Shown: positions 41,531 to 57,509 of the stretch, piece by piece
Numbering within the stretch: the stretch's first letter is position 1
Layout of the letters: each line of letters begins with the position of its first letter
Assembly (NCBI RefSeq): GCF_014526325.1
Contig: NZ_JACNMJ010000001.1
Coordinates: forward strand, 1,302,001 to 1,366,000
DNA length: 64,000 nt
Direction of reading: 5' to 3'
From: Psychroserpens algicola
GTDB taxonomy: Bacteria; Bacteroidota; Bacteroidia; Flavobacteriales; Flavobacteriaceae
Position numbers and translations under genes: made by a program
The notes under the pieces: generated by a model
Databases searched by the model: none
What the model saw: the letters and a program-made list of their open reading frames with translations, nothing else
What the model was told of the DNA's origin: nothing

Positions 41531-42451
41531 GTGAATAAAACGCAAAAATCTCAATTTATTAAATCTGAAGCCAAACGCCTCGGGTTTCTGTCTTGTGGTA
41601 TTAGTAAAGCTCAGTTTTTAGAAGAGGAAGCACCTCGCCTCGAAAAATGGCTGAAGAATAATGCTCATGGTGAGATGCGTTATATGGAAAATCATTTTGA
41701 TAAACGCCTTGATCCCACAAAACTTGTAGAAGGTTCTAAAAGTGTCGTGTCATTATTACTAAATTATTATCCTTCGGAAATTCAAAACCCTGAATCCTAT
41801 AAGCTTTCTAAATATGCTTATGGAACCGACTATCACTTTGTCATTAAAGATAAATTGAAATCCTTATTACAGGTTATCCAGGATGAAATTGGAGATGTGC
41901 ATGGTCGTGCCTTTGTGGATTCGGCTCCCGTTTTGGATAAAGCATGGGCTGCAAAATCAGGATTGGGTTGGATTGGTAAACACAGCAATCTACTGACGCA
42001 GCAAATAGGATCGTTCTATTTTATTGCCGAATTAATTATTGATCTCGAATTGGAATACGACCACGCTACGACTGACCACTGCGGAACCTGTACGGCTTGT
42101 ATAGATGCTTGTCCTACACAAGCTATTACAGAACCTTATGTCGTTGATGGTAGCAAATGCATCTCGTATTTTACTATAGAACTCAAAGAAAATATTCCTT
42201 CAGAGTTTAAAGGTCAGTTTGATGACTGGATGTTTGGTTGTGATGTGTGTCAGGATGTTTGTCCGTGGAATCGTTTTTCAAAAGCGCATAGCGAGCCTTT
42301 ATTTAATCCACATCCCGATTTATTATCGATGACCAAGAAAGACTGGGATGAAATTACAGAAGATACTTTTAGAAAGGTGTTTAAAAAATCGGCAGTAAAA
42401 CGCACAAAATTTGAAGGTTTACAACGTAATATTACTTTTTTAAAACACTAA
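41531..42451 (+). CDS. queG: Epoxyqueuosine reductase QueG
   Basis: A 306-residue cobalamin- and iron-sulfur-dependent enzyme that reduces epoxyqueuosine to queuosine in tRNA. The catalytic/B12 region [20 protein letters not shown] is followed by two [4Fe-4S] motifs, [16 protein letters not shown] and [15 protein letters not shown] at 41531 ([15 protein letters not shown]) is preferred to the TTG at 41525, which sits in the promoter element. The 3' end overlaps the convergent subtilase gene by 20 bases. Confidence 0.93.
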
Positions 42452-44084
42452 TTTGATTAGTAATACTATCGGCCATTATAAAGGCATTATATGCATTAAT
42501 TATTTTTCCAGATTTTGATAATTCATAAAAAGGAGTGTCTATTTCCTTTTCATTTTCTGATAGAATTTTAATTCGATAGGGAAACTCAACACCTGAATCC
42601 ATAATAATATGTTTGACTTGTGAAGCCGTTAAATCGGGATAATAGGCAAAAAGTAATGCTGCTACTTTTGATGCTACAGCCGAAGCCAAAGATGTACCAC
42701 TATCGAAACTATAATTATTTCTAGGATAAGTGGTATATACGCTATCTCCAGGAGAGAAAATATCAACATTAATTTTACCGTAATTACTAAATGTTGATAG
42801 TTTTGAATTTAAGTGGTGAGAACTAGCACCAACATACAAGAAATTATCACAAAACTCATTGGTTTCATGATAACTGTCATTAGGATAAATATGTGAATTT
42901 ATATCAATATTCACAGCGTCATTTCCTGATGCTGATACGATTAAAACGTTGTGTTTTTCTGCATATAAAAAGGCGTCTTTAAGCCATTCCGAATGTAAGG
43001 AGAATGCTTTTCCAAAACTCATGTTAATTACTTTCGCTCCTTGATTAACAGCATATTTAATTCCTAGGGCTATATCTTTATCATGAGTGCTGCCACCATT
43101 CGGTAAAATAGAGACGGGAAGGATTTTAATTAAGTTTTTATCTGAGCTTGATTCACTTGAATTGGTTATCATTCCGACAACTCTTGTTCCGTGAGTAAAT
43201 GTGTCTAGATGGTCGTATGTTTTATTATTTCCGTAGATAGTATCGTTAAGGTTATTAGGATCATCACCAACTATAGTTCTAGGAAAATAGGATAGGTTTA
43301 ATTTTTTATGATAGGTGTCCTTTTGGTCTTGGTTATACCTGGTCATATTTTTATCAGAATCGTTGTATTGAATGATAAGTTTTATTTCTTCGACATATTT
43401 CGATAATCCATTACCAACCGTATCTATAGAATTTAGGATATCTAATGAGTAATTATATTCTGGGAAATAAGATTTTAATGCGTCACGAGCTTCTAAATAG
43501 AAATTGAAAATTTTATTAGATTGTTCTAATGAAGCCTTCGAAGAGATTAGGCTCGTTCTTAATTTTTCCTTAGCTCTTTTATATTCAGGATTATTGAAAA
43601 TGGTATCACTTACAACTCCGTTTAAAACTTGTGTTTCAAAGGTTCTAATGATTCTAACATATTCAAAATTTTCGATAATTACAGTTTCACCTTTTGTATT
43701 TCCTAAGAAGTTCCAACCATGAACATCATCGATATAACCATTAGCATCGTCATCGATATGATTATCTGGAATTTCATTTGGGTTAGTCCAGATTTGTGTT
43801 TTGAAGGCCTCATGATGAATGTCAACTTTAGTATCAAGTACGGCAACAATAACTGTTTCTCCTGTTGTATTTTTTAAGATAGTATTATAGGCTTTTTCTA
43901 AACTTATTCCAGGAATCGTATCTGCAATAATATCTTTTAAATGCCAATCTTTGATTGTAGTAATTTTCGAATGTATTGAAATACTATCTTGATAGGGATT
44001 TTCGATTTTTAATAATGGCAAATTTTCATTTGAGTTACAGCTCAAGAAAAAAAAGAATATAATAAGGCTAGATAGCTGTCGCAT
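42432..44084 (-). CDS. Subtilisin-like (S8) serine protease lipoprotein next to the RiPP precursor
   Basis: A 550-residue exported protease. Start at 44084 ([16 protein letters not shown]) gives a lipoprotein signal. Catalytic residues: Asp84 in [11 protein letters not shown], His298 in [10 protein letters not shown], Ser465 in [11 protein letters not shown], with the oxyanion Asn in SASGN. The Asp-to-His distance is about 214 residues because of a long insertion, far above the usual 30-60, and the Asp motif reads DTK rather than DTG. The gene is 76 bases downstream of the GG-leader precursor and on the same strand, with a terminator between. A role as a LanP-like leader peptidase or in self-protection is inference; a general secreted protease is the alternative. 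Confidence 0.85.
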
Positions 44085-44106
44085 GATTATGATACAATAA
44101 GTTATT

Positions 44107-44144
44107 ATAAACAAAAAGGTCCTTTACAAGACCTTTTTGTTTAT
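44107..44144 (-). terminator. Terminator between RiPP precursor and subtilase
   Basis: A perfect 15-bp stem (ATAAACAAAAAGGTC, 44107-44121, with 44130-44144) and 8-nt loop. On the minus strand the stem runs into the T-rich arm after GACC. It would end most precursor transcripts while letting some reach the protease gene. Confidence 0.8.
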
Positions 44145-44160
44145 TTCTATCATTGATAGA

Positions 44161-44334
44161 TTAATTATTGTCGTTACTTATTGCACATGTTGCACTTGGA
44201 GGAATGCATGCTCTTGTAGATAAGGTTATTGTTCTATGGTCATCATCTGCATTACCACCAATAACGTTTGATAAATTGTTTAATTTAGAAATTTTGAATT
44301 TTTCGATTAATAGTTTTTTGTTGGCATTTTTCAT
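44161..44334 (-). CDS. GG-leader RiPP precursor, putative class I lanthipeptide (57 aa)
   Basis: Start at 44334 (MKNANKKLLIEKFKISKLNN) chosen by homology to other Bacteroidota precursors; the open frame reaches 44370. The leader is 27 residues ending NVIGG, a double-glycine site for a C39 peptidase. The 30-residue core starts NADDDHRTITLSTRAC and ends with two Cys, each preceded by Ser/Thr at ring-forming distance (Thr13 or Ser12 to Cys16; Ser20 to Cys23), flanked by Thr8 and Thr10. This fits a lanthipeptide substrate for the split dehydratase encoded upstream on the same strand. No cyclase gene is seen. The product is unknown. Confidence 0.75.
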   Translation of the reverse strand: MKNANKKLLIEKFKISKLNNLSNVIGGNADDDHRTITLSTRACIPPSATCAISNDNN

Positions 44335-44444
44335 AATAGTATTGATTTTGTTAAAATTGATTTGATTCAAATAAATAACAATATGAGTTGTAATACAAGT
44401 AAAACAAGGGCCTTTCAGTCGGAATTCATGAATCTAGAGACAAT

Positions 44445-46130
44445 TTACTTGTTTAATTGTCTTAAAAAGAAGGATGGCTTAAGTCCGGTTGATTTATGAA
44501 AAGCCTTTGAGAAGGATTCTGCAGAATTAAAGCCGACCTCATTTCCTATAGCTTTAATGGTATAATTTCTAAAGACATTTTCGTGCTGTAATTTATGAAC
44601 AGCATAGTCAATTCGTAAATCATTCAAATAATTTGAGAAATTTTTGTTTTTATAATGATTTACAATTTTCGAAAGGTATTTTGAATTGGTTTCAAAATCT
44701 TTTGCTAATGAGTTTAAGGTTAAATTAGAATTTATGAAGTCATTATTTTTTTCAAAGGTTTCTAATTTCAAAAGTATATCGTCAATAACATCTGAGTTGA
44801 TATTCAAATTAATAGTATCATCAGATTTGATTTGTATTGGAGTATTCTCAATGTCTTTGTTTTTATTGAATAATGACTCAAACTTTCTTTTATTTTTTTT
44901 ATTCTCGTTAAAGTAATAGATAACAACAATGACTAGTATAATAAGAACTATAGCTGCAGTTGAAAGGTATTTTTTTGATATCTGATTTTTATCATTTATC
45001 GTATTGATAATCCTTTCTTTCTCTACAAGTAATTTTGGTGTATCATATTCCTTGAACATGGTTTTAGATAACCGTTTATAGTTTTTTGTCAATACACTGT
45101 CAATACCTAGTAATCGATTTACATAAACAAGTTCATTAGTTTCATCTTTATTCTTTTTATGATAATTAATTAGCAATTCATAACCTTTTCTAGTATTTGG
45201 ATGGACATCATTAATTTTAATGAACATACTATCCATCTTTTTTAGATTGTTAATAGCGGCTTCTTCATTATTTAAATATGAATAATTTGCACCTAAATAA
45301 TAGTAACAAAACTGAAGGTTATGATAGTCTTCAATGGTGTTTAAATAAGGAATCGCTTTGTTGATATTATGTATACTGCTGATGTATTCTTTTTTCTGTA
45401 AATCAATAGCACCTTCATTAAGGAGGTAGTAAGAAAATAAATCTTTATTAGCAACTGTGTCTATTTTCTTAATTAATAAGTTGTTGTAATGGGATGAAGA
45501 ATCTGTTTTTTTTAAATTGATATAAGCGTCTACTATCGATGGAAGTATATTCAACGCATAAACAGCATCTTCCTCTTGAACATAATAATTGTAAGCTTTT
45601 TTAAATAATTTTACAGAAGCCTCATATTCACCTATTCGGTTTTTAATAATTCCAATATTATAATCAGCTTGAAGGTCTAACTCGTAATCAAAATCTTGAT
45701 TGCTATTTAATTTTTTGACTTTTAAGAAATCTTCTAGAGCTTTATCATAACTATTCATATTATAATAGGCGATTCCTCTTAAGTAATAAGCGTTAATAAA
45801 ATTACTTCTATAAGCGGGTTTATTTGAAATGCTGATAATGCTATCTGCAAATTTTATTTTATGTTCTTCTAATTTTGAATAGAAAATAGCAAAGCTGTAA
45901 GATCTGATGAGTTGTAAAGTGTCATTTTCTTTTTTTGCTTTTTTAGTGAAAGCATTGATATATTTAAAAAGCAATTGCGGATTATCTTGATGTTTTGAAA
46001 TATTGTCAACAATAGCTTCATAATCTAATTTTGAAAAAGGCGTATTTGTAGAACCCGATGATGATTTTTGAGCATAAAGTTCCATGCTTAATACCATACA
46101 TATGATAATTGGAACTATAAACCTACGCAT
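44445..46130 (-). CDS. Membrane-anchored TPR-AraC transcriptional regulator
   Basis: A 561-residue one-component regulator. Signal peptide MRRFIVPIIICMVLSMELYAQ, about 330 residues of TPR-like helices on the periplasmic side, a transmembrane helix (about 390-410, STAAIVLIILVIVVIYYF), and a cytoplasmic C-terminal AraC-type HTH domain (SLAKDFETNSKYLSKIVN and IGNEVGFNSAESFSKAFHKS). This is a known Bacteroidota design that can read an external or periplasmic signal directly. Its start overlaps the LanB-C stop by 8 bases, so it is co-translated with the dehydratase and is the likely local regulator of the RiPP locus; the ligand is unknown. Confidence 0.88.
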   Translation of the reverse strand: MRRFIVPIIICMVLSMELYAQKSSSGSTNTPFSKLDYEAIVDNISKHQDNPQLLFKYINAFTKKAKKENDTLQLIRSYSFAIFYSKLEEHKIKFADSIISISNKPAYRSNFINAYYLRGIAYYNMNSYDKALEDFLKVKKLNSNQDFDYELDLQADYNIGIIKNRIGEYEASVKLFKKAYNYYVQEEDAVYALNILPSIVDAYINLKKTDSSSHYNNLLIKKIDTVANKDLFSYYLLNEGAIDLQKKEYISSIHNINKAIPYLNTIEDYHNLQFCYYYLGANYSYLNNEEAAINNLKKMDSMFIKINDVHPNTRKGYELLINYHKKNKDETNELVYVNRLLGIDSVLTKNYKRLSKTMFKEYDTPKLLVEKERIINTINDKNQISKKYLSTAAIVLIILVIVVIYYFNENKKNKRKFESLFNKNKDIENTPIQIKSDDTINLNINSDVIDDILLKLETFEKNNDFINSNLTLNSLAKDFETNSKYLSKIVNHYKNKNFSNYLNDLRIDYAVHKLQHENVFRNYTIKAIGNEVGFNSAESFSKAFHKSTGLKPSFFLRQLNK

Positions 46131-47001
46131 TGCTCTTTGCTATTTTAGTTTTTAAAATCTTACTCAAAAAATCATAAACAACCATTTCGTGTTGTCTTTG
46201 TTTTGATCTGAAAGCTCTGTTAACAGACATATGAATGACACTAGATAATAAATTTGTTAGTGACAATTGGAGCGTATCATTATCTTGATGATCTAAAATT
46301 TTACGGATAACACGATCTGCTTTACGATGTCTTTCTTTGATTAGGACATCCAAAGATACTAATTCAGTATTTAAATGTGTAGTATAGAAAAAGGCATTAA
46401 TGCTTTTAATTAAATCTCTATACTTTGTAGCAAGTTGTTTGCTTGTAATCTTATTTGCATTGAACTCGTTTCTAAAAGCAATTTTTATTGAGTCTACAAA
46501 CGTTAATTTTTGTGAATCATCAAAATGAAAGGCATCTAATAATGTATAAACAGACTTTAATACAAATATGAGGCGCTCTTCATCAGTTTTGATATTACCT
46601 ATGGCTTTTACTATCATATTACTATCGTGATAGAAAAACGTTTCAATGTCTTCAATCGTATGATTTCCATAACGATCAAGCTCTCTGATATAGGTATCTG
46701 TATTCATACACCATATTAATTTATCATTAATTAATGGATTGAAAACTTTAAAAACTTCAGAAATAACAGTCCCAATATGAGTTGTTGAAGTCACGTGTAA
46801 CCTAAGCCGAATATGAAATTCAGGATCATTATAACGAATAAAAAACCACTTATCGATGAGTTTAGATTCTAAAAGCTTAGTTGTAATCTGATAAATCGTA
46901 TCAGCTAAAATAATATCAGCAGTATTAACTCCAGAATATATTTTATAGTATAACCATTCACTACCAATAATGAATGATTGCTGAGGTTTTAATTCATTCA
47001 T
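46123..47001 (-). CDS. Lanthipeptide dehydratase elimination domain protein (split LanB-C)
   Basis: A 292-residue stand-alone SpaB_C / thiopeptide-type bacteriocin domain, the half of a class I dehydratase that removes glutamate from glutamylated Ser/Thr to leave Dha/Dhb. Conserved blocks are SEWLYYKIYSG, WFFIRYNDPEFHIRLRL and, near the C-terminus, VIHMSVNRAFRSKQRQHE, which holds residues used in elimination. In most LanB enzymes this is fused to the N-terminal part; here it is separate, as in pinensin clusters. Overlaps both neighbours by 8 bases. Confidence 0.88.
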   Translation of the reverse strand: MNELKPQQSFIIGSEWLYYKIYSGVNTADIILADTIYQITTKLLESKLIDKWFFIRYNDPEFHIRLRLHVTSTTHIGTVISEVFKVFNPLINDKLIWCMNTDTYIRELDRYGNHTIEDIETFFYHDSNMIVKAIGNIKTDEERLIFVLKSVYTLLDAFHFDDSQKLTFVDSIKIAFRNEFNANKITSKQLATKYRDLIKSINAFFYTTHLNTELVSLDVLIKERHRKADRVIRKILDHQDNDTLQLSLTNLLSSVIHMSVNRAFRSKQRQHEMVVYDFLSKILKTKIAKSNA

Positions 47002-49225
47002 TAGTGGTCTGTTTTAATGTTGATTCATTATAAAAAGAAATTACGAATTCATTACACAATGGTTCTTCATTTTGTTTAACTATGCCATTACCAGTAAATA
47101 AAAATTCTTGTAATACAAATGTTTTTTTCTTCTTAATAGTTTGTAATAGCATCTCAACAGCCCTTAGATTTTCTAAGTCAATCAATAAGGTATTATCTCC
47201 TTCAACCAATTCAACATATTTGGGAAGATTCATATTTTGTTGCCATTGGTTAATGTCTTGATGTTTGATGCCTGCTATATCATTAGTGAAGCGAGAAATA
47301 TCCTCGGTTTTTATTAACCATCGTGCTTTTGATAAAATGATATTCTTATATTCTACACGAGGCAAGAACGCATACTTTTGAAAAATAGGATTCCAGGAAA
47401 AATAAATACTAGCCCTTTGGTTTTGTGATTGTAGATCACATAAGAAATGATATATAGGTAAAGCGTCTACGGAAAAATTATGAGCATTGGTTAATCGTGG
47501 AATAACATATTTATTATGTGTTTTAGATCGTAAATAAATTCCATCGGGTTGTACTGAAACCATAAGGTCGTTGATGGATATTTGTTGTTTTTGAGGTAAA
47601 GTAGAATTGCCTAAATAAGGTATTTCATACTTTCTAAATGGTAATCTTTGTAATATATTACCCGTTCGATCTTGAGGTAAATGTACAATTTCAGCAATAA
47701 TAGAGCCTGTTTCTATGCGTTCTTCAACACTAATGATTTTGTCAATACAAGCTGCTATTTCAGGACTACCATTGCTAAAGCGGGCGAGTAAACTAGCAGC
47801 ACTAGAGCCACTTATAGCATTGATGACAATTTTGGTATCGCTGTTATCATTTATTAGTTCAATAATTGAAGACATAGTAGACGGCAAGTCATCCCATTGT
47901 TCTGGTAAATGTTTTAAGTCTTCATCTGTAAGTTGAATCGACTTTGATCCAATTGAAATGGACTTATTTATTCGTTGTAAGAGTAAATCGTCAAATTTAG
48001 ACCATTCTATATTTTGGAACTGAGGCTTTTGTTTCGGCAGAAAAAGGTCATCAATGAGCGTATTCGAATCTCCTCTTTCGGTATTATAACCTAGGCCAGA
48101 CTCTACATCTAAAGCAAGCGTTAATGGAACTTCATTATTTTCATAACGTTTTAAAAATGCTGATTTAAAACGGCTTAAATTTTGATTGTTATGAGATCGG
48201 GATATTTTATTTAAAACACCCATTGCCTCTTTGAGTTCTTTTTTTAATTTGAATTCTAAGGTGTTTGTTTTAGCATTAGAAAATAAATCGGTTTGAAACA
48301 AGTATTTTGAGTCAAAACTGAGGTTGAAACCTTCTATGTCTTGAGTTAAATTGTGATATAACTGAACAGAATAATCTGTATTGGTGTCAATTGTATTCAA
48401 AGAAGAATTGAGATGATATAGTTTTTTTAGTACATGGTTTATACCAGCCATGGGTTTCAATATTTCGATGGTATGTTCCAATGCGCCTTTACCAGTAACT
48501 GGAGTGTCTAAGTTTGAGACTAGAATTTGTAATTCTATAAGTTGATGTATAAAACCGCTAGCTTCCTCAATAGTAATATCCTTACTAACTAAACTTTTAC
48601 TTAATTCTATAATGCTTTTTCCAGAAACAGCATGTTTCAAAACAGCTTCTATAGCTTCAGAATGAGTAATACCTTCAAGACTATATTCTCTGTGCTTACC
48701 ATCAGTTTTATATTCAACATACCTGTACTGAGATCCAATTTTATACAACGAATTATTGGGGTAAAAAATAAGTTGTTGCTTAATCTTTGGGTCGTTAGAA
48801 AGCAATTTTGAGAGTGCCGATAAAAACGTCATGTCAAATCGTGTTACACGACTGAAATGATCAATTGTATTCATTTCAATGTCAGTTTCATGAGAGAACT
48901 CACCAACACTACAGGCAGCGAAAAGTCCGAAAGGTGTACATCTGGCAGTTAATCTCGAGGTATACTTTAAGAATGAATCTTGTAAGCGTCTTGTTTTAAA
49001 AGCATCATCCAAGTCATCATTATACCACTTTTCTAACTGATTATGAAGTTCAGGAGAAGCCAGATATAATGCTTCATTTACAATTGGTATTTCAAAAACA
49101 GCTTTAAAATCAGCATTAGTAATAGGGTCATTTTGGTGTAATTTCTTATAAAACTGATAGCTAAGTAAAGGAGTTCTTAAGATGTAATTATTGAAAATTT
49201 GATATGGATTTTTCTGTTTTTTCAC
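46994..49225 (-). CDS. Lanthipeptide dehydratase glutamylation domain protein (split LanB-N)
   Basis: A 743-residue lantibiotic dehydratase N-terminal domain. It activates Ser/Thr of the precursor by transfer of glutamate from Glu-tRNA. Family blocks: YQIFNNYILRTPLLSYQFY at the start, SRLTARCTPFGLFAACSVG (the TPFGLF motif), and a long middle region with ALDVESGLGYN. It starts at a GTG (49225), supported by the TATTTTTG element upstream, and is the first gene of the leftward operon LanB-N, LanB-C, AraC regulator. An alternative use as a peptide aminoacyl-tRNA ligase is less likely because the elimination partner follows directly. Confidence 0.88.
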   Translation of the reverse strand: MKKQKNPYQIFNNYILRTPLLSYQFYKKLHQNDPITNADFKAVFEIPIVNEALYLASPELHNQLEKWYNDDLDDAFKTRRLQDSFLKYTSRLTARCTPFGLFAACSVGEFSHETDIEMNTIDHFSRVTRFDMTFLSALSKLLSNDPKIKQQLIFYPNNSLYKIGSQYRYVEYKTDGKHREYSLEGITHSEAIEAVLKHAVSGKSIIELSKSLVSKDITIEEASGFIHQLIELQILVSNLDTPVTGKGALEHTIEILKPMAGINHVLKKLYHLNSSLNTIDTNTDYSVQLYHNLTQDIEGFNLSFDSKYLFQTDLFSNAKTNTLEFKLKKELKEAMGVLNKISRSHNNQNLSRFKSAFLKRYENNEVPLTLALDVESGLGYNTERGDSNTLIDDLFLPKQKPQFQNIEWSKFDDLLLQRINKSISIGSKSIQLTDEDLKHLPEQWDDLPSTMSSIIELINDNSDTKIVINAISGSSAASLLARFSNGSPEIAACIDKIISVEERIETGSIIAEIVHLPQDRTGNILQRLPFRKYEIPYLGNSTLPQKQQISINDLMVSVQPDGIYLRSKTHNKYVIPRLTNAHNFSVDALPIYHFLCDLQSQNQRASIYFSWNPIFQKYAFLPRVEYKNIILSKARWLIKTEDISRFTNDIAGIKHQDINQWQQNMNLPKYVELVEGDNTLLIDLENLRAVEMLLQTIKKKKTFVLQEFLFTGNGIVKQNEEPLCNEFVISFYNESTLKQTTNE

Positions 49226-49245
49226 GAAAAGGGCTTGAGTTAGTT

Positions 49246-49253
49246 CAAAAATA
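49246..49253 (-). promoter_or_regulatory. -7 element (TATTTTTG) of the LanB operon
   Basis: A TAnnTTTG match on the minus strand 20 bases before the GTG start of LanB-N; no clear -33 partner is visible. Confidence 0.5.
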
Positions 49254-49480
49254 GCTGTTTTTATTAAGAATCACTCAGATTAAATTTAAAATACAGATAG
49301 TCAGTAAGTTATGATTTTATTTTGGAATAGACATTCATAAATCCCTTGTCGAAATTCAAGAATACAGACTTATTTGGTTTGCTTTCCAACTAAAATCGGT
49401 GCTACATTCACAACAGCGAAACAGGAGATTTATAACCTCATTTTATGTTTTACTAAAAGTTGTACAACACTTAGCGTAAA

Positions 49481-49505: not shown

Positions 49506-49526
49506 AAATTTTTTAAACATTTTATT

Positions 49527-49730
49527 ATGAAAACTAATTTCAGTTCAAAATTATTTGATAAGAAAATTGACCTTGAATCTTGTAACTCAGTTATGGGAGG
49601 AAGAATGGCATCTGGATGTCAAACAATCACTTTTTCAGGTCCTACAGGAGCTACTAACGCAACCGATAGTACAACTACGGATTATGATGATAATGGAAAC
49701 ATTACCACAATTAAGCATTGTGAATACTAA
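49527..49730 (+). CDS. Graspetide-type precursor peptide 1 (67 aa)
   Basis: Leader of 25 residues (MKTNFSSKLFDKKIDLESCN then SVMGG), a double-glycine export site. The core is 42 residues rich in Thr, Asp and Gly with two Cys; its C-terminal 21 residues begin DSTTTDYDDNGNITTIKHC. Three paralogues follow at 49804, 50066 and 50346, all sharing the SKLFxKxIxL leader and the C-terminal block. Thr/Ser beside Asp/Glu is what an ATP-grasp ligase needs to form ester or amide macrocycles, and such a ligase is encoded downstream. A terminator follows immediately. Confidence 0.78.
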   Translation: MKTNFSSKLFDKKIDLESCNSVMGGRMASGCQTITFSGPTGATNATDSTTTDYDDNGNITTIKHCEY

Positions 49731-49743
49731 GAGATGCTAACTC

Positions 49744-49779
49744 AAAAATGTAAACTATTGCCCAATAGTTTACATTTTT
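49744..49779 (+). terminator. Terminator between precursors 1 and 2
   Basis: A 16-bp perfect stem (AAAAATGTAAACTATT with AATAGTTTACATTTTT), 4-nt loop GCCC, and a T-rich right arm. It should make precursor 1 the most abundant transcript, with precursor 2 dependent on read-through because no shared element precedes it. Confidence 0.85.
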
Positions 49780-49803
49780 TACCACTTTTTAAATCAATTA
49801 ATT

Positions 49804-50001
49804 ATGAAAACTAAAATCAATTCAAAATTATTTCAAAAAGAAATAAGCTTGAAAGCACTCAGTGCAGTATTTGGAAGTAGAGGCGGATCTCATAGCACTT
49901 TTGTAACTGTTACCAATAACGGTGGAGGTACTCAAGACGAATCTACTAGTGTATATAATGACAATGGAGAATTAATTAGTGTAAAGCATACTGCGCTATA
50001 A
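49804..50001 (+). CDS. Graspetide-type precursor peptide 2 (65 aa)
   Basis: Paralogue of precursor 1: MKTKINSKLFQKEISLKALS leader, but the processing site reads FGS rather than GG. The core has no Cys (SRGGSHSTF then VTVTNNGGG) and ends with DESTSVYNDNGELISVKH. The absence of Cys in this copy shows that Cys is not essential to the family, which favours ester/amide cyclisation over thioether rings. The most diverged of the four; may be a poor substrate. Confidence 0.72.
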   Translation: MKTKINSKLFQKEISLKALSAVFGSRGGSHSTFVTVTNNGGGTQDESTSVYNDNGELISVKHTAL

Positions 50002-50016
50002 TCTAATTGTTATGTA

Positions 50017-50047
50017 GGGGAAGCTGAAAACCTTTTTAGAGTAGGTG
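50017..50047 (+). promoter_or_regulatory. Shared upstream element, copy 2
   Basis: GGGGAAGCTGAAAACCTTTT then TAGAGTAGGTG; ends about 19 bases before the ATG at 50066. Confidence 0.55.
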
Positions 50048-50065
50048 TAAACATAAAATATAAGA

Positions 50066-50263
50066 ATGATGAAAAGTATCAATTCAAAATTATTCGAAAA
50101 GAAAATTAACCTAGAGGCATCAAATGTTGTTTTTGGTGGAAGACGATCGTCTACAGCATCTTCAGAAACAACTCATACAGGGCCAAATGGTAATCAAGAC
50201 GAGCAAACTACTCATTACGATGAGGATTGTAATATCACTATGATAGAGATTTGCTGGAATTAA
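50066..50263 (+). CDS. Graspetide-type precursor peptide 3 (65 aa)
   Basis: MMKSINSKLFEKKINLEASN leader ending VVFGG. Starting at the first of two adjacent Met gives the same 25-residue leader as the paralogues, so it is preferred, though the second (50069) is possible. The core is Ser/Thr-rich at its start (RRSSTASSETTHTG) and ends with DEQTTHYDEDCNITMIE plus a Cys near the end; here Cys replaces the Gly of the other copies inside the conserved block. Confidence 0.74.
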   Translation: MMKSINSKLFEKKINLEASNVVFGGRRSSTASSETTHTGPNGNQDEQTTHYDEDCNITMIEICWN

Positions 50264-50293
50264 GAAATAACCTCATTTGAAGATTATTTTAAC

Positions 50294-50327
50294 GGGGGAA
50301 ATCGAAAACCCATAACAGAGTAGATAC
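50294..50327 (+). promoter_or_regulatory. Shared upstream element, copy 3
   Basis: GGGGGAAATCGAAAACCCAT then AACAGAGTAGATAC; ends 18 bases before the ATG at 50346. Confidence 0.55.
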
Positions 50328-50345
50328 AACTTTAATTATAATAGT

Positions 50346-50543
50346 ATGAAAACGAATTTTAATTCAAAATTATTTGAAAAGAAAATTGATCTTGAGTCTT
50401 CTAACTCAATTCTAGGAGGAGCAAGAGGTACCGGATGTACAATTACGAATTACTCTTACGAGAACGGTAGCCAATCAGATCAAACAACTAATCATTACAA
50501 CGAGGAAGGTCATTTGACAAAAATCGAACATTGCTACGAGTAA
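50346..50543 (+). CDS. Graspetide-type precursor peptide 4 (65 aa)
   Basis: MKTNFNSKLFEKKIDLESSN leader ending SILGG, the closest leader to precursor 1. The core ARGTGCTITNYSYENGSQS is followed by the conserved block DQTTNHYNEEGHLTKIEHC. It has two Cys. Last precursor before a long hairpin and the maturation genes. Invariant across all four copies in the 21-residue block are Asp1, Thr4, Tyr7 and an acidic residue at position 9. Confidence 0.76.
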   Translation: MKTNFNSKLFEKKIDLESSNSILGGARGTGCTITNYSYENGSQSDQTTNHYNEEGHLTKIEHCYE

Positions 50544-50556
50544 TGAGATTGTTTTT

Positions 50557-50591
50557 AAGAAACTATAAACTGTCGCGGTTTATAGTTTCTT
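50557..50591 (+). terminator. Hairpin terminator between precursors and maturation genes
   Basis: A 14-bp perfect stem (AAGAAACTATAAAC with GTTTATAGTTTCTT), loop TGTCGCG. The T tract after the stem is short (TTAATC), so partial read-through into the maturation genes is expected. Confidence 0.65.
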
Positions 50592-50632
50592 TAATCTAGC
50601 GTGTAAGATAGCACAGAAAATAACATAACATT

Positions 50633-50655
50633 ATTGCTTCATTTTTCGAAGCAAT
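50633..50655 (+). other. Short hairpin in the leader of the unknown lipoprotein gene
   Basis: A perfect 8-bp stem ATTGCTTC / GAAGCAAT with 7-nt loop ATTTTTC, 16 bases before the ATG at 50672 and without a T tail. It could affect translation or mRNA processing; no known riboswitch is recognised. Confidence 0.4.
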
Positions 50656-50671
50656 CAAAAAACTTAAAATT

Positions 50672-51745
50672 ATGGGATATTATAAAGGAATCGTAATCAC
50701 AGGAGGTATGTTTTTAATACTTATTAGTATGGCTTGTAACTCAAATAAGAAAGACATAACGATACAAAATTGGTTGAAGGACTATGATAGATATCAGGAT
50801 TATATCTCAAATGAATTAGGTGATTGCAACTTGACACGTGATGTCTTTAATCAACTTAAGCTTGAAGAATTTAAGGAAAAACTTTATGGTGATCTAGCAT
50901 ACTGTTCAAAAGATGATAAAGTTTTATTAAAAAAATACCTTCTTAAAAACGTATCCTCAGGACTGCATCCAAGTAGAGTTGATAGCATAGCGTATGCATC
51001 TGTTTATAACGATATTAAAAACGACTTAAATATCGAACATCATAAGTTCTGGAAAGAACAAGACACATCATATTTTTCAGAGGTTGAAGCGCGGGTGTTT
51101 TTAGATCAACAATTGTACAGACAAGGGCAATCCGACACTACAAACTATTCTAGAGAAAAGAGGATTTCTGTTTTCAAAGAAAACACAAAATATTTATTAG
51201 AATATTGCAAGCAAAATGGGTTTCCTTTTAAACCAGGTCCTAGGAATTTCGATTCATTTAGAGTAGGTATAAATCCAACTGTAATTGCTATTCATGCAGA
51301 GCATAAGGATAAAGTGGAATTGTTGAATTATGCTGTAGAGGCCGCTAAACAAGGAAAGATTAGTTGGCATGACCCCATATCCATCTGTATAACATTTCAT
51401 ACAAATTCTATAAAACGAAACGCAGTTAAACCTATACATTTCCTTCACTTTAATGAAGACCATACTTTAGATGTTTCAAAGTCGTATTTACAACTTTACA
51501 GTATTGCCAAGTTATACAGTCAAGATATGACAGTACCTATTAAGATACAGCCTTCGAAGTTTAATCAAGACGCATCAGACATCGTGTCTCAACAGCTTGA
51601 AGACATCAAAAACATACTCGTTAATGAGTTTTCATATAAGGCCAACGAGATTCAAATATCTAAGGTTCCAAATGAAAACGAAAAAGAACGAGAAGGACTT
51701 ACAGATTACAAATTTACTTTAACAGAAATACTTAAAAATCAATAA
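50672..51745 (+). CDS. Lipoprotein of unknown function in the graspetide operon
   Basis: A 357-residue protein. The lipoprotein signal MGYYKGIVITGGMFLILISM ends at the lipid-modified Cys of ACNSN. The rest is hydrophilic with mixed helix and strand character and shows no domain I recognise; conserved-looking stretches include NGFPFKPGPRNFDSFRVG and AIHAEHKDKVELL in the middle, and LEDIKNILVNEFSYKANEI near the end. It lies between the precursors and the ATP-grasp gene, 5 bases before the latter, so it is part of the maturation unit. It may be an immunity protein, a surface partner of the exporter or a receptor; none of these is shown by sequence. Confidence 0.7.
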   Translation: MGYYKGIVITGGMFLILISMACNSNKKDITIQNWLKDYDRYQDYISNELGDCNLTRDVFNQLKLEEFKEKLYGDLAYCSKDDKVLLKKYLLKNVSSGLHPSRVDSIAYASVYNDIKNDLNIEHHKFWKEQDTSYFSEVEARVFLDQQLYRQGQSDTTNYSREKRISVFKENTKYLLEYCKQNGFPFKPGPRNFDSFRVGINPTVIAIHAEHKDKVELLNYAVEAAKQGKISWHDPISICITFHTNSIKRNAVKPIHFLHFNEDHTLDVSKSYLQLYSIAKLYSQDMTVPIKIQPSKFNQDASDIVSQQLEDIKNILVNEFSYKANEIQISKVPNENEKEREGLTDYKFTLTEILKNQ

Positions 51746-51750
51746 GAGCT

Positions 51751-52704
51751 ATGATTTTAATATTATCCTTAACAAATGATTATTCTACCGGAGAGGTCAT
51801 CAAATGGTTAAATTTCTTAAATAAACCTTTCGTTCGAATAAATGAAGATGACGAAATCACTCTCGAATATCTAGATCATCAAGATTTAAGATTTGATTTT
51901 AAAGGTGAAAAAATCAATTTATCCGATATAACCGCTATCTGGTACAGAAGAGGTAACTTTAATATAAATGCATTACCATTTAAATTAAAAGATAAAAAAC
52001 CACTATTGCAAGCTTATGTAGGATCTGAAATAACTGAGCTTACTCACTATATCCATAATTTATTTAAGACCAAGAAAAATCTAAATAATTATAACACCCA
52101 TCATGTTAATAAATTGGAGGTATTACGTTTTTGTAAAGACAATGACATTAACCATACGCCATTTATTGTAACACAGTCTAAATCAGATCTTCAGAGTTTT
52201 TATGAAAAAGAAAAGAATATAATTTCAAAGGCTATTAAAAGCCCTTTTATTGTGCTTACAAAGGAGCTGCATTATGGCAGTTACACATACAAGGTGAAGA
52301 GTGAAGATATTGATAATCTTCCTGAAAATTTTACACCAACGTTCTTTCAAAAGCAAATAGATAAGAAATACGAAATAAGAACCTTTTACATTGATGGTGA
52401 TTTTTATAGTATGGCAATATTTTCACAAGGTAATGACCAAACAAAGTTAGACTTTAGACACTACGATGAAAAGCATCCCAATAGAACCTTGCCTTTTAAA
52501 CTTCCTAAAGAATATGAGGCGAAATTAGATAAAATGCTAAGACATTTCGATGTTAATTGTGCATCTATGGATACCATAATTTCACCCGATAATGAATACA
52601 GTATGATTGACATCAATCCTATTGGTCAGTTTGGGATGACGTCTATGCCATGTAATTATAATTTAGAAAAAACAATAGCAGAATATTTAACAGATGAAAG
52701 ATAA
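51751..52704 (+). CDS. ATP-grasp peptide maturase (grasp-with-spasm system ligase)
   Basis: A 317-residue ATP-grasp ligase of the MvdC/MvdD-like type that forms ester or amide links between Thr/Ser or Lys and Asp/Glu of a precursor. The N-terminus MILILSLTNDYSTGEVIKWL is typical, followed by the family's WYRRGNF. The ATP-binding core has QKQIDKKYEIRTFYIDGDFY, and the metal-binding end is MIDINPIGQFGM. The adjacent SPASM-domain gene identifies the Bacteroidota 'grasp-with-spasm' arrangement. Its stop overlaps the next ORF's start by 11 bases. Substrates are presumably the four upstream precursors. Confidence 0.86.
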   Translation: MILILSLTNDYSTGEVIKWLNFLNKPFVRINEDDEITLEYLDHQDLRFDFKGEKINLSDITAIWYRRGNFNINALPFKLKDKKPLLQAYVGSEITELTHYIHNLFKTKKNLNNYNTHHVNKLEVLRFCKDNDINHTPFIVTQSKSDLQSFYEKEKNIISKAIKSPFIVLTKELHYGSYTYKVKSEDIDNLPENFTPTFFQKQIDKKYEIRTFYIDGDFYSMAIFSQGNDQTKLDFRHYDEKHPNRTLPFKLPKEYEAKLDKMLRHFDVNCASMDTIISPDNEYSMIDINPIGQFGMTSMPCNYNLEKTIAEYLTDER

Positions 52705-52894
52705 AATCAACATGGAAGATAAAATCAAAAACGAATTTTTAAAGGGAAATTGCCCAGCACATCTACTTTCTCTCAAAAATTTTAACGCAACAAAAAAAAC
52801 TGTTGATAATAGTAGCATTAAAAAAGCACGACAATCTAAAGCATTAAAGACGAATTACTTTATAATCGAAAGATTTTTTAAATCACCACTATGA
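52694..52894 (+). CDS. Small coupled ORF of unknown function (66 aa)
   Basis: It begins inside the end of the ATP-grasp gene (ATG at 52694; another at 52712 gives MEDKIKNEFLKGNCPAHLLS) and its stop TGA overlaps the ATG of the SPASM gene (ATGA at 52891-52894). That double coupling argues that it is translated. The product is basic, with one Cys in GNCPAHLLSLKNFN and a Lys-rich C-terminal half. No leader-type GG site is seen, so it is not an obvious precursor. It might be an accessory factor that carries the precursor or a partner for the SPASM protein. Confidence 0.6.
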   Translation: MKDKINMEDKIKNEFLKGNCPAHLLSLKNFNATKKTVDNSSIKKARQSKALKTNYFIIERFFKSPL

Positions 52895-53982
52895 AACGAT
52901 ATTATTTAAGAAATAGATTGTGTTTCCCAATTAAGGGAATGAACAGAAGTATTATATATGACCTTAACCGTCAGGACTATTACTTTATTCCGCTTAGTTT
53001 ATACGATAAACTATCTAAAAATGAAGTCATCACTTTCGACGATGATGCATCATATAAAGAGTGGGAAGCATTGCTCCTAGAAAAAGAAATTATTTTCTCG
53101 GTTGACAATGATAAGGAAGATCAATATTTTCCTCCAATTTCAGAAGCGTATGACATGCCGTGCCTTTTAAGTACTTTAATTATACATGATAATTTTGATA
53201 TTGAAAAACTCGGGTTTATTGAATCTGCATACGTTTTAAACGTTTCGATTATTGTCAATGACTATGAAAGTGTAAAAAAGCAAGAATTTGTTGATTTAAT
53301 GAGTAAATTGTCAACATTCGAGATCGACTCCATATATCTTTATGTTACCGATAACAAAAAGTCATTTAATAGAGAAGATTTTAGACCTTTAGATGGCATT
53401 AATCAATTATTTAATATTTATATTTTTGAGCATCTATTTGAAAAAGATGATTCATTTGATATTCTGAATTTTGTTTTCAGAGATACTTCTTTCGGAGAAT
53501 TTTCTCAACGAATGACAAAAGAAAAACTTCAGGTTAATTATCCTCATTTTTTAGAAGCATTGAACAGCAATAATTATTTCAATGAAAAAGTATATGTGGA
53601 TGACATAGGAAATATTAGAAATGGAATCAATAGTGCTAAATCATTTGGTAATATAAATGCAATGAAAAATGATAAGGAATTGATCGATTTGATTCAATCA
53701 GATTCGTTTAAAACCTTATGGAATGTCAAAAAAGATGATACCCTTATATGTAAAGACTGTGAGTTTAGATACATGTGTGTAGATTCTCGTAATGTTGAAC
53801 AAAATGCTGAAGGTGAGTGGTTTCACAAAACAGAATGTAATTACAACCCTTATTTATCCAAATGGACACATGAAGAAGATTTTAAAAGTCTTGAAGAATG
53901 TGGTATTATACTCAATAGTGAAGGACAGTTTAAGATTAACGAAAAACAGCTAGAAACAGTATTCAATTCTGTTTGGGATTAA
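52891..53982 (+). CDS. SPASM-domain peptide maturase of the grasp-with-spasm system
   Basis: A 363-residue protein. The C-terminus has the SPASM cysteine pattern (ICKDCEFRYMCVDSR and a later ECNYNPYLSKW), expected to hold an iron-sulfur cluster. The N-terminal 260 residues, which in radical-SAM maturases would contain CxxxCxxC, have only two widely spaced Cys and no such motif, so it is probably not a radical-SAM enzyme. It starts MKRYYLRNRLCFPIKGMNRS. It acts with the ATP-grasp ligase encoded just before it. A scaffold or precursor-recognition role is inference. Confidence 0.85.
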   Translation: MKRYYLRNRLCFPIKGMNRSIIYDLNRQDYYFIPLSLYDKLSKNEVITFDDDASYKEWEALLLEKEIIFSVDNDKEDQYFPPISEAYDMPCLLSTLIIHDNFDIEKLGFIESAYVLNVSIIVNDYESVKKQEFVDLMSKLSTFEIDSIYLYVTDNKKSFNREDFRPLDGINQLFNIYIFEHLFEKDDSFDILNFVFRDTSFGEFSQRMTKEKLQVNYPHFLEALNSNNYFNEKVYVDDIGNIRNGINSAKSFGNINAMKNDKELIDLIQSDSFKTLWNVKKDDTLICKDCEFRYMCVDSRNVEQNAEGEWFHKTECNYNPYLSKWTHEEDFKSLEECGIILNSEGQFKINEKQLETVFNSVWD

Positions 53983-54003
53983 CAGGTTAACCAAAACAAA
54001 CTA

Positions 54004-56199
54004 ATGAAATTAAAGAAATTCCCTAATTATAAACAGCACGATAGTAAAGATTGTGGACCAACATGTCTTAAAATAATAATTAAGCATTACGGAAAAACAA
54101 GCTCTCTTGAGCATATTCGCAAAATATCTGAAACCACAAGAATAGGAAGTAGTTTATCTACTTTGAGTAATGCTGCTGAAGAATTAGGATTTCGATCATT
54201 AGGTGTAAAAATTGGAATCAAAGACCTAGAAGAGTGTCCTCTGCCAGCCATTTTGCATTGGAATCAAAACCACTACGTTGTATTATTTAAAATTAAAAAT
54301 GGCGTATACCATATCTCAGATCCTGCCCATGGTATTATTAAATATGGCAAAACAGAATTTCTTAAGCATTGGATGGGTAATAATTCTGATGACTCTACCG
54401 AAGATGGGATTGTTTTATTACTCGAACCTACTCCTAAATTTTACGATTCTGAATTTGAAAAAGATAGTTCTAGCCTAGGATTCACATTTCTTTCGCGATA
54501 TCTTTTTAAATATAAACGCTTTCTTTGGCAATTGGTTTTTGGATTAATTGCTGCAAGTATTTTGCAGTTAATCTTTCCGTTTCTTACACAGAGTATCGTC
54601 GATGTGGGAATTAAAAACCAAGACTTACACTTTATATATTTAATACTATTTGCTCAATTAGCCTTGTTCTTAGGTAGAACTGCAATTGAAATAATTAGAA
54701 GCTGGATTTTACTACATCTCAGTACTCGAATCAATATATCATTAGTAGCCGATTTTTTTGTAAAACTCATGAATTTACCAATTGGGTTTTTCGATTCCAG
54801 AATGACAGGAGATATCATGCAACGTATAAATGATCATAAAAGAATAGAACGCATTTTAACTACATCGTCCTTAAATGTGCTATTCTCAATGGTGAATTTA
54901 ATCATATTTAGTGCCGTTTTAGCCTACTATAACCTTATGATTTTTGCAATTTTCTTATTGGGTAGTCTGCTCTATTTTTTCTGGATAGTCATATTCCTAA
55001 AAAAGCGAAAAGATTTAGATTACAAACAATTCTCACAAGTTAGTCAAGAGCAAAGTAAAGTCATCGAGCTTATTAATGGTATGCAAGAAATTAAGCTTCA
55101 CAATGCTGAAAGACAGAAGCGATGGGGTTGGGAGTTTTTACAGGCAAGATTGTTTAAAATATCTATTGATGGTCTGGCATTAGAGCAATACCAAAGTGTT
55201 GGGTCAGGGTTTATTAATGAGTTAAAGAATATTTTAATTACTGTTCTATCTGCTAAGTTAGTTATTGATGGGAATATCACTTTGGGGATGATGCTGGCAA
55301 TTAGTTACATTGTTGGTCAATTAAACTCGCCAATATCGCAACTTATAAACTTTATTAGAGAAGTACAAGATGCCAGAATATCTCTTGACAGATTAACAGA
55401 AATACATAACAAGCCTAATGAAGAGGATCCTGAGCAACAAAAGATTACTGAAATTCCAACCGATGCAGATATTGAGCTTAAAAATGTGTCTTACAGGTAT
55501 ATAGGTTCAGAACAATTAGTACTCAAAGACTTAAGTTTAAAAATACCTGCAAATAAAATTACAGCCATTGTTGGAACAAGTGGAAGTGGGAAAACAACAC
55601 TCATGAAGCTGCTCTTAAAATTCTATGAGCCAAACGAAGGTCAAATCAATATTGGGAACTTTAACTTAAATAATATTTCTCAAAGAAGCTGGAGAGAAGA
55701 GTGTGGAGTTGTAATGCAAGAAGGATATATATTTAGTGATACTATTGCTAATAATATTGCTGTTGGTGATAATTACATCGATAAAGAAAGACTTGCACAT
55801 GCCGTAAATGTTGCTAACATTAGTGAATACATAGAATCATTACCATTATCTTATAATACCAAAATTGGAATGGAAGGGGTTGGTTTAAGTACAGGTCAAA
55901 AACAACGATTGTTAATTGCTAGAGCAGTCTATAAAAATCCTAATGTGTTGTTCTTTGATGAAGCTACAAGTGCTCTTGACGCCAATAACGAAAAAATTAT
56001 CATGGAAAAACTTGATCGCTTTTTTGAAAATAAGACAGTCCTAGTCGTAGCTCACCGTCTAAGTACTGTTAAAAATGCAGATCAAATTGTTGTACTCGAA
56101 AAAGGAAAAATTGTTGAAGTCGGTAATCATAAAGAATTGGTTAAGAAAAAAGGCAATTATTACAACTTAGTTAAAAATCAATTAGAACTCGGAAATTAA
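54004..56199 (+). CDS. C39-peptidase ABC exporter (bacteriocin/RiPP type)
   Basis: A 731-residue fused protease-permease-ATPase that cleaves GG leaders and exports the peptide. The C39 peptidase domain (1-145) has its catalytic Cys in DSKDCGPTCLKIII, His in NQNHYVVLFKI and Asp in HISDPAHG. Six transmembrane helices (about 170-440) follow, then the ATPase: Walker A GTSGSGKTTLMKL, signature LSTGQKQRLLIARA (LSTGQ in place of LSGGQ) and Walker B VLFFDEATSALD with H-loop VAHRLS. It is the only exporter in the whole RiPP region, so it may serve both the lanthipeptide-type and graspetide-type precursors. The HlyD gene starts 2 bases after its stop. Confidence 0.93.
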   Translation: MKLKKFPNYKQHDSKDCGPTCLKIIIKHYGKTSSLEHIRKISETTRIGSSLSTLSNAAEELGFRSLGVKIGIKDLEECPLPAILHWNQNHYVVLFKIKNGVYHISDPAHGIIKYGKTEFLKHWMGNNSDDSTEDGIVLLLEPTPKFYDSEFEKDSSSLGFTFLSRYLFKYKRFLWQLVFGLIAASILQLIFPFLTQSIVDVGIKNQDLHFIYLILFAQLALFLGRTAIEIIRSWILLHLSTRINISLVADFFVKLMNLPIGFFDSRMTGDIMQRINDHKRIERILTTSSLNVLFSMVNLIIFSAVLAYYNLMIFAIFLLGSLLYFFWIVIFLKKRKDLDYKQFSQVSQEQSKVIELINGMQEIKLHNAERQKRWGWEFLQARLFKISIDGLALEQYQSVGSGFINELKNILITVLSAKLVIDGNITLGMMLAISYIVGQLNSPISQLINFIREVQDARISLDRLTEIHNKPNEEDPEQQKITEIPTDADIELKNVSYRYIGSEQLVLKDLSLKIPANKITAIVGTSGSGKTTLMKLLLKFYEPNEGQINIGNFNLNNISQRSWREECGVVMQEGYIFSDTIANNIAVGDNYIDKERLAHAVNVANISEYIESLPLSYNTKIGMEGVGLSTGQKQRLLIARAVYKNPNVLFFDEATSALDANNEKIIMEKLDRFFENKTVLVVAHRLSTVKNADQIVVLEKGKIVEVGNHKELVKKKGNYYNLVKNQLELGN

Positions 56200-56200
56200 G

Positions 56201-57493
56201 ATGTCAGAAAAATTACAAGACATAGAATTAAGAAGCGAAGAAGTACAAGAGATACTAACCAAGGTGCCACATTGGATGATACGCTGGGGAAATCTGTTAT
56301 TTCTTGGATTGCTCATGCTAATAATATTTCTTTCATGGTTTATAAAATATCCAGATATTATTCAATCTGAAACTTATGTAACTACGATAATTCCACCTCA
56401 AAAGGAATTTGCTAATACAACAGGGAAGTTCGAAGTAATTTTAGTAAAAGATGATGAGCAGGTTAGTGTCAATCAACCACTGGCTGTTATCGAGAATTCA
56501 GCAAGTTACAAGGATGTTTTTAAATTAAAACAAATCATAGATACTCTAAAAATTAATAATAAAGACTTCATATTTCCTCTAGATAGTTTGCCAATTTTAT
56601 TTCTTGGTGATTTAGAAGTTCAATATGCTTTATTTGAAAACAGTTACATACAATATAAATTAAACAAAGAACTTAAACCATTTGCTAATGAAACTATTGC
56701 AAATAGGTATTCAATTTCCGAATTAAATAGACGCCTTAAGAGTTTAAAATCTCAGGAAAGTATTGGGAGAAAAGAATTAGAGTTTAAGCATAATGATCTC
56801 ATGCGTAACAAATCATTATATGAAAAGGGTGTGATCTCAGCTCAAGCTTATGAAAATATTCAATTAGAATATGCGCAGGCTGAACGTAACTATAAAAACT
56901 TTGAAGCCTCAATATCTCAAGTTAGAGAAGGAATTAGTAATGCCAATAAAGTGTCTAAAGGCGCAGAAATCAATAAAGTTACAGAGGAAATGTTGATGCT
57001 AAAAAATGTGATTCAATCCTTTAATAAACTGAAAAAAGCATTGCGAGATTGGGAATTACAATATGTGCTAAAATCGAATATAGAAGGCAAAGTGTCTTTT
57101 TTAAATTATTATGATGAAAACCAAACGGTTCAATTGGGCGATTTAGTATTCTCTATAATCCCTAAGGAAAACTCTTCATATATAGCAAAACTCAAAACAC
57201 CTTCTCAGAATTTTGGTAAGGTCAAACTAGGTCAAAAAGTAAATGTTAAACTAGAAAATTATCCAGATACTGAATTTGGATTACTTAGCGGAACAGTAAG
57301 TCACATTTCGGTTTTACCTGATGATGAAGGCAATTATATGGTTGATGTTTTACTTCCAGAAAAATTAATCACATCTTATAACAAGGAAATAGACTTTAAA
57401 CAGGAAATGCGTGGTTCGGCAGAAATTATTACTGAAGACCTCAGACTTATAGAGCGCTTTTTTTATCAGTTTAAAGAAGTCTTAAAGCGTTAA
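56201..57493 (+). CDS. HlyD-family periplasmic adaptor of the RiPP exporter
   Basis: A 430-residue membrane-fusion protein linking the ABC exporter to an outer-membrane channel. An N-terminal cytoplasmic stub is followed by one membrane helix (about 30-50, LLFLGLLMLIIFLSWFIKYP), a lipoyl-like strand region (SETYVTTIIPPQKEF), a long coiled-coil hairpin (about 170-270) and a C-terminal beta-barrel region (KVSFLNYYDENQTVQLGD, then QNFGKVKLGQKVNVKLENYP). Last gene of the right arm; the LacI-type gene converges 16 bases on. No TolC gene is present here. Confidence 0.9.
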   Translation: MSEKLQDIELRSEEVQEILTKVPHWMIRWGNLLFLGLLMLIIFLSWFIKYPDIIQSETYVTTIIPPQKEFANTTGKFEVILVKDDEQVSVNQPLAVIENSASYKDVFKLKQIIDTLKINNKDFIFPLDSLPILFLGDLEVQYALFENSYIQYKLNKELKPFANETIANRYSISELNRRLKSLKSQESIGRKELEFKHNDLMRNKSLYEKGVISAQAYENIQLEYAQAERNYKNFEASISQVREGISNANKVSKGAEINKVTEEMLMLKNVIQSFNKLKKALRDWELQYVLKSNIEGKVSFLNYYDENQTVQLGDLVFSIIPKENSSYIAKLKTPSQNFGKVKLGQKVNVKLENYPDTEFGLLSGTVSHISVLPDDEGNYMVDVLLPEKLITSYNKEIDFKQEMRGSAEIITEDLRLIERFFYQFKEVLKR

Positions 57494-57509
57494 TGTAGCC
57501 CTGTAGATA

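Follow-up and report, generated by a model that had tools for sequence, protein, structure and literature searches.

In a 64,000-nucleotide stretch of Psychroserpens algicola DNA (contig NZ_JACNMJ010000001.1, positions 1,302,001 to 1,366,000; hereafter the window), the interval 42432-57493 carries two gene sets for ribosomally synthesised and post-translationally modified peptides (RiPPs) built back to back, a left arm on the minus strand and a right arm on the plus strand. The left arm is read here as an autoinduction module that is based on a modified peptide and joined to a set of graspetide-making genes, and from the sequence evidence this reading as a whole is given a probability of roughly 50%. 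According to the model, two separate RiPP pathways would share one C39 exporter. On the right, an ATP-grasp ligase would cyclise four precursors through ester or amide bonds. On the left, the precursor at 44161-44334 would be bound by way of its LxLxK leader; LanBN would glutamylate Ser/Thr residues and LanBC would eliminate the glutamate to leave dehydroalanine or dehydrobutyrine (Dha/Dhb), with no dedicated cyclase. The C39 exporter would then cleave after the GG and export the left core, a surface or periplasmic peptidase (here of S8 type) would trim it, and the TPR domain of a cognate one-pass TPR-AraC protein would sense the trimmed peptide, its cytoplasmic AraC domain adjusting transcript levels of the locus, plausibly those of the divergent graspetide operon among them.

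The open reading frames (ORFs) were found at the coordinates that a preliminary description of the window had given, and domains were called by Pfam and NCBIfam profile searches with curated cut-offs. These searches bear out its inventory of a split LanB, a TPR-AraC regulator, a GG precursor and a subtilase on the left (PF04738, PF14028, PF00082, TPR and helix-turn-helix (HTH) profiles), and of an ATP-grasp ligase, a C39 ABC exporter and an HlyD protein on the right. Features it did not contain are the missing LanC match, the single-copy C39 domain, the SPASM protein devoid of a CxxxCxxC motif, a 66-aa ORF and a 357-aa protein.

The putative receptor is encoded at 44445-46130 (minus strand) and is a membrane regulator consisting of a TPR solenoid, one transmembrane (TM) segment and a C-terminal AraC HTH domain, with TPR and HTH profiles above their cut-offs. 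A single central TM segment was seen by hydropathy in 78 of 78 homologues (aa 383-411 in the protein of this locus); the TPR half would lie in the periplasm. The predicted structure (predicted local distance difference test, pLDDT, 87) shows the TPR solenoid, a long helix and the HTH domain; the folds closest to it are those of LGN in TPR-peptide complexes, followed further down the list by complexes of Rap with pheromone, and a profile comparison matches RapF. Beside this gene lies the left-arm precursor (44161-44334, minus strand), which has an LxLxK-type leader ending in GG and the core NADDDHRTITLSTRACIPPSATCAISNDNN, and which scores 25.6 bits with a hidden Markov model (HMM) built from 54 left leaders of loci without a grasp ligase. 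The short inverted repeat GACAATT/AATTGTC at 44440-44461, noticed by eye between the two genes, may be an operator or may be due to chance.

A leader-type ORF lies within 450 bp, downstream or divergent, of 71 of 87 TPR-AraC genes; among 866 other ORFs with a length of 180 aa or more, 6 have such a neighbour. Eleven loci hold two or three TPR-AraC genes, and in 7 of these every such gene is accompanied by a precursor of its own. The next gene after the TPR-AraC/precursor pair is often a secreted peptidase, of which S8, S9 and S15 types were identified; here it is a secreted, lipoprotein-like S8 peptidase (42432-44114, minus strand; PF00082, 137.2 bits). A crude lipobox scan was positive in 19 of 22 of its S8 homologues, and in other loci the slot is filled by S9 or S15 types (S15 in two other-slot proteins scanned).

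Divergence of the cores follows that of the TPR half. Of the parts compared across 63 precursor/TPR-AraC pairs, the TPR half varies most (mean p-distance 0.755, against 0.533 for the HTH and 0.558 for LanB), and core distance correlates with TPR distance when LanB and HTH are controlled (partial r 0.36, P 0.001). The corresponding partial correlations are -0.08 for the HTH and 0.03 for LanB, meaning that no positive HTH residual is present and that the LanB value is not significant. With near pairs removed and the leader added as a covariate, r falls to 0.20-0.23; for the 40 pairs without a nearby LanC it is 0.34, or 0.195 after near pairs are removed. For two core types, the receptor tree also splits exactly by core type (5 versus 9; Shimodaira-Hasegawa-like approximate likelihood ratio test, SH-aLRT, 99), both across genomes and within shared loci.

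Several observations weigh against taking this as recognition of a peptide by its receptor. The count of 71 of 87 is partly circular, as the precursors used to train the leader HMM were chosen near TPR-AraC or peptidase genes; no precursor was detected for 16 of the 87 TPR-AraC genes, and 4 of the 11 loci with several TPR-AraC genes have one that lacks a precursor. TPR folds bind many ligands, and the LGN-type matches outrank Rap. Of 78 TPR-AraC homologues put through a crude scan for an N-terminal signal, 48 were positive; the P. algicola protein was negative. Near pairs strengthen the core-TPR correlation, and the two core types were defined post hoc from the cores themselves and cover 14 of the 63 pairs. 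The co-divergence is what would be expected of ligand and receptor, yet genes that lie close together and are inherited jointly could show part of it for that reason. RNPP receptors, such as Rap and its kin, bind peptides through a TPR domain and are encoded beside the peptide gene. The system described here has in common with them the TPR ligand domain, a peptide gene beside a putative receptor gene, and a profile and fold match. It differs in that a single TM helix connects the TPR domain to an AraC output domain, in place of a cytosolic receptor with an RNPP-type output domain, and in that the peptide is predicted to be GG-processed and LanB-modified; membership in the family is not claimed. 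Given the anatomy, the precursor/TPR-AraC pairing and the co-divergence, the proposal that the left peptide is a signal and the TPR-AraC protein its cognate membrane receptor is held at even odds, the signalling step itself being inferred. That this signal controls the right graspetide arm is a more doubtful step: repeat searches of the locus found no operator that the two arms have in common, which speaks against it, and scans of the locus for sigma-70-like and terminator-like elements yielded nothing exceeding shuffled sequence.

The two arms recur together in other genomes. In a family sample of 397 genomes, PF04738 (LanB) was found in 35 and TIGR04192 (the ligase) in 30 at an E-value of 0.001, the latter including matches below the TIGR04192 cut-off; both occurred in 12 of the 397 (Fisher 9e-7). 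Six LanB-grasp pairs lay within 15 kb of each other against 0.17 expected, an expectation calculated for evenly placed genes and from rounded genome sizes. In an order sample the ligase was present in at least 59 of 395 genomes, LanB in 38 of the 53 ligase genomes searched for PF04738, and LanB-grasp loci within 15 kb numbered at least eight; the chance value for pairing applies to the family sample only. With one further paired locus from Polaribacter sp. IC073 (L118), there are 15 distinct paired loci in total, 11 of them divergent as in P. algicola and four not (L070, L190, L191 and L194); L120, L122 and L179 duplicate the loci of G085, G224 and G490, each of which enters the total only once, and the ligase falls below the TIGR04192 cut-off in G085, G370 and G515. 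A search with a single LanBN protein found no relative; an alignment was used as the query instead, and the LanBN-relative loci discussed here are the best 80 of 545 found by it, a set biased to the closest LanBN proteins and not a random sample. As the pairing requires at least four changes on a LanBN tree of 36 rows and 13 on one of 133 rows, it was gained or lost on repeated occasions. Each arm is often found alone, in some cases with its own exporter. The arms are therefore modular, yet co-located more often than chance would allow; the possibility that they always occur separately, which would have undone the association made in the preliminary description, agrees with the frequent solitary arms and not with the excess of paired ones.

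Modularity also lends weight to an alternative in which the locus encodes two independent bioactive peptides within a RiPP hot spot, sharing the exporter, and in which the TPR-AraC protein is an ordinary regulator answering an unrelated cue. In a genome of the same genus (G267), a copy of the QueG 3' end joins the LacI side directly and the block 42462-57522 is missing as one unit, which counts for the main reading; in G045 different genes come after QueG. Within G267 (L230, 10754-15493) the QueG 3' end is duplicated about 3.6 kb apart, with genes for a TPR protein and for a secreted one between the copies. This suggests that the QueG 3' site is an insertion hot spot, holding an unrelated 3.6-kb insert in G267 and the 15-kb block in P. 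algicola; the unrelated insert speaks for the alternative. The alternative leaves unexplained why each TPR-AraC gene has a precursor of its own in 7 of 11 multi-gene loci and why core divergence tracks the TPR domain specifically, and is considered possible but rather unlikely. Just upstream of QueG in the window lie a cytochrome P450-like gene (38651-39985) and a gene for a MauG/MbnH-like di-heme protein (40128-41468), the NCBIfam matches being below cut-off.

Both of these readings have the two arms share one exporter. The C39-peptidase ABC exporter is encoded in the right arm (54004-56199, plus strand; PF03412, 118.5 bits, with the ABC domains passing Pfam cut-offs) and is followed by an HlyD-family adaptor (56201-57493, plus strand; PF13437 passed, TIGR01843 below cut-off). 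Because the C39 domain of this exporter is the only one in the P. algicola genome, which measures 3.80 Mb and is rated 100% complete, it is likely that both arms share it. The two chemistries and single exporter that had been described for the locus are thus supported, by a co-location far above chance and by the single C39 domain. With P. algicola (G000) counted, the sole genomic C39 is the locus copy in 4 of 14 paired genomes examined (G000, G085, G224 and G370); against general sharing, the other 10 have two to five C39 matches, so that sharing is not forced there. In an exporter tree of 44 rows with hand-assigned groups, 27 of 29 exporters from paired, grasp-only and LanB-TPR-only loci form one clade together with 1 of 15 exporters from LanC loci; L151 and L152 are labelled 'lanOnly' in this tree though LanC lies in the same stretch. 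The exceptions are the exporter of paired locus L187 and the second exporter of L221, which fall outside the main clade, and that of the LanC locus L086, which falls inside it.

In addition to a shared exporter, the preliminary description had raised the idea of a hybrid peptide, in which the LanB pair would also act on the four right precursors; a variant of it has the ligase modify the left one. The adjacency of the arms recurs and the right cores are rich in Ser/Thr, both of which agree with such a product. The comparison of leaders that had been proposed as a check places the left precursor and the four right precursors in different families: the left-leader HMM detects a left precursor in all of the 15 paired loci but L188, although two of the 14 matches are weak (E 0.03 and 0.16), and matches none of 33 right-arm candidates at E of 10 or lower, duplicates and doubtful ORFs included. 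The precursors of each arm also recur without the other arm. The left precursor of paired Polaribacter IC073 (L118) is identical at 43 of 50 positions to that of Polaribacter Z022 (L108), where the 22-kb stretch holds no ligase, and the left precursor of paired G490 (L187) is identical over its 55 aa to that of G523 (L197), where a 20-kb stretch is without a ligase, G523 carrying ligases elsewhere in the genome. On the right, a precursor of paired G370 matches one of LanB-less G045 at 32 of 50 positions and the P. algicola precursors resemble those of G287; PF04738 has no match in G045 or G287, the same model being positive in G000. As the leader families differ and the precursors of each arm persist without the other, the arms very probably make two separate products, and the hybrid is disfavoured to the point of being improbable. 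It was rejected as the main interpretation, a common leader for both enzyme sets finding no support in the leader comparison. In G554 (L191, 5810-14406) genes for LanC, LanBN, LanBC, a Porph_ging-type protein of 300 aa, three precursors, the grasp ligase and the SPASM protein all lie on one strand. This locus, which adds to what can be said for a hybrid, is the strongest contender for a pathway that truly makes one.

Returning to two separate products, the left arm contains the glutamylation half LanBN (46994-49225, minus strand; PF04738, 490.6 bits) and the glutamate-elimination half LanBC (46123-47001, minus strand; PF14028, 218.3 bits; TIGR03891, 215.1 bits). Aligned to NisB, residues R91, R95, T97, D131, D313 and R482 of LanBN are invariant in 11 sequences, and R65/R67, E107, R110 and H257 of LanBC are invariant in 18. 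The NisB residues aligned with LanBN are those of glutamylation, and those aligned with LanBC form the elimination site; since both halves keep these catalytic residues, dehydration of Ser/Thr by the LanB pair is expected. In G350:C5, LanB is one 688-aa frame despite two profile matches. Divergent to a left-arm module that has no adjacent grasp ligase (G320, L081, 7462-8739), a JmjC/cupin-type oxygenase was observed and is a possible alternative tailoring partner.

Whether dehydration is followed by ring formation separates the present reading from that of a classical class I lanthipeptide, in which rings would form spontaneously or through a cyclase missed by PF05147. A LanC match (PF05147) was not found anywhere in the P. 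algicola genome at E 0.001, though the same search is positive in 19 of 34 LanB genomes. Cores without Cys make up 20 of 50 from loci with no nearby LanC and 0 of 27 from loci with LanC (Fisher 6e-5), where no nearby LanC means no LanC HMM match in a stretch of about 20 kb and does not imply absence from the genome, and where the 50 include one core from the LanB-less locus L103. LanC adjacency maps to a single branch of the 36-row family LanBN tree and is clustered on the 133-row tree (9 changes against 42 when shuffled). One member of the LanC clade, L088, has no adjacent LanC and its genome carries LanC elsewhere. In favour of a lanthipeptide, the left core NADDDHRTITLSTRACIPPSATCAISNDNN has two Cys and several Ser/Thr, the Cys lying in a lanthipeptide-like spacing that makes thioethers possible, and its leader fits the LxLxKx5L GG form of Bacteroidetes class I precursors described in PMC7268733. 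Furthermore, the LanC-less loci are not one group on the 133-row tree, where the absence of LanC takes 9 changes; LanC is thus gained or lost, and no clean line divides the two kinds. Taken together, a left product that is dehydrated (Dha/Dhb) without LanC rings is somewhat favoured. Two of these findings, the lack of a LanC match in the genome and the absence of Cys from 20 of the 50 cores of loci with no LanC nearby, make the thioether chemistry initially assigned to this arm doubtful, and a classical lanthipeptide is very unlikely.

The right arm begins with four precursors on the plus strand (49527-49730, 49804-50001, 50066-50263 and 50346-50543), recognised by their paralogy and unmatched by the left-leader HMM. 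They are paralogous at the DNA level, for example with 81% identity over 124 bp, as had been described, and all four ORFs contain a TT/TS-x2-Y-D/N-D/E-like motif by eye. Near-perfect inverted repeats follow precursors 1 and 4 (49744-49779 and 50554-50594) and are possibly terminators or attenuators. A 357-aa protein (50672-51745, plus strand) has no Pfam or NCBIfam match; it appears lipoprotein-like by eye, a crude lipobox scan was positive in 0 of 2, and an HMM match places a homologue in L221, a grasp-only locus in G287. The ligase (51751-52704, plus strand) is a grasp-with-spasm ATP-grasp ligase, or graspetide synthetase, scoring 305 bits with TIGR04192 against a cut-off of 230. On homology, the right arm is a grasp-with-spasm graspetide pathway and its rings are predicted.

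Between the ligase and the SPASM gene is a 66-aa small protein (52694-52894, plus strand) in the position of the 'LPL' family, to which it is assigned by its slot; a small ORF occupies this gap in most grasp loci. The SPASM protein (52891-53982, plus strand) adjoins the ligase and gives a match to TIGR04193 (E 1e-40, 140 bits) that stays below the cut-off of 175; the catalytic step that the name implied is not supported, the CxxxCxxC radical-SAM motif being found in none of 30 SPASM rows, P. algicola included (29 distinct sequences, of which one is a truncated copy). Cysteines C287, C290, C296 and C316, at the C-terminus, are invariant. The predicted structure (pLDDT 89) places a small strand-rich domain first and gives weak fold matches, the best being SuiB at E 1.3e-3. 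With the radical-SAM motif missing and the model matching SuiB weakly, a leader-binding scaffold is more likely than a radical-SAM catalyst, and the SPASM and LPL-position proteins are probably non-catalytic partners of the leader or ligase.

Both arms resemble known systems. PMC7268733, a survey anchored on LanC, reports that class I clusters of Bacteroidetes have split LanB proteins and GG leaders of the LxLxKx5L form; pinensin-type clusters have in common with the left arm the split halves, the LxLxK GG leaders and C39 processing. In contrast to these, the left arm has no LanC match, Cys is optional in the cores, a TPR-AraC gene lies beside most precursors, and a secreted S8, S9 or S15 peptidase is present. 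PMC8939145 describes grasp-with-spasm loci, their LPL protein, and TPR proteins whose role is unclear. Its branch 5 and the chryseoviridin relatives have in common with the right arm the TIGR04192 ligase, the SPASM and LPL-position proteins, several precursors, the C39 exporter and HlyD, whereas here the set is joined divergently to a split-LanB module; in the main text of that paper 'LanB' appears 0 times and 'lanthi' once. The pairing of the two, first regarded as novel, is recurrent and non-random; the co-occurrence itself is covered by one sentence (Figure S21) in PMC13097080, which places lanthipeptide dehydratases together with the graspetide synthetase in some graspetide biosynthetic gene clusters, and neither 'LanB' nor 'Bacteroid' occurs in its main text. 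PMC10352776 proposes that TPR proteins of Bacteroidales RiPP clusters might work through pheromone binding. A literature search of titles and the starts of abstracts, with few subscription papers, gave no recognised description of a TPR-AraC/precursor pair; the precursor beside most TPR-AraC genes and the core divergence that tracks the TPR half are new.

Extending the model beyond P. algicola, a family of modified pheromones in Flavobacteriales, in which every core would be dehydrated by LanB, exported after GG cleavage, trimmed by a protease and recognised by a co-evolving transmembrane TPR-AraC receptor of its own, and which in paired loci drives the graspetide operon and uses the shared exporter, is a tentative proposal and less probable than the model for this locus. 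The SPASM proteins without the radical-SAM motif point to a partner role in graspetide formation. Should the precursor and TPR-AraC protein be ligand and receptor, the persistence of dehydratases without cyclases or Cys would be explained, cognate pairs would be available for the comparison of specificity, and the left arm would represent a testable peptide-signalling language in Bacteroidota.

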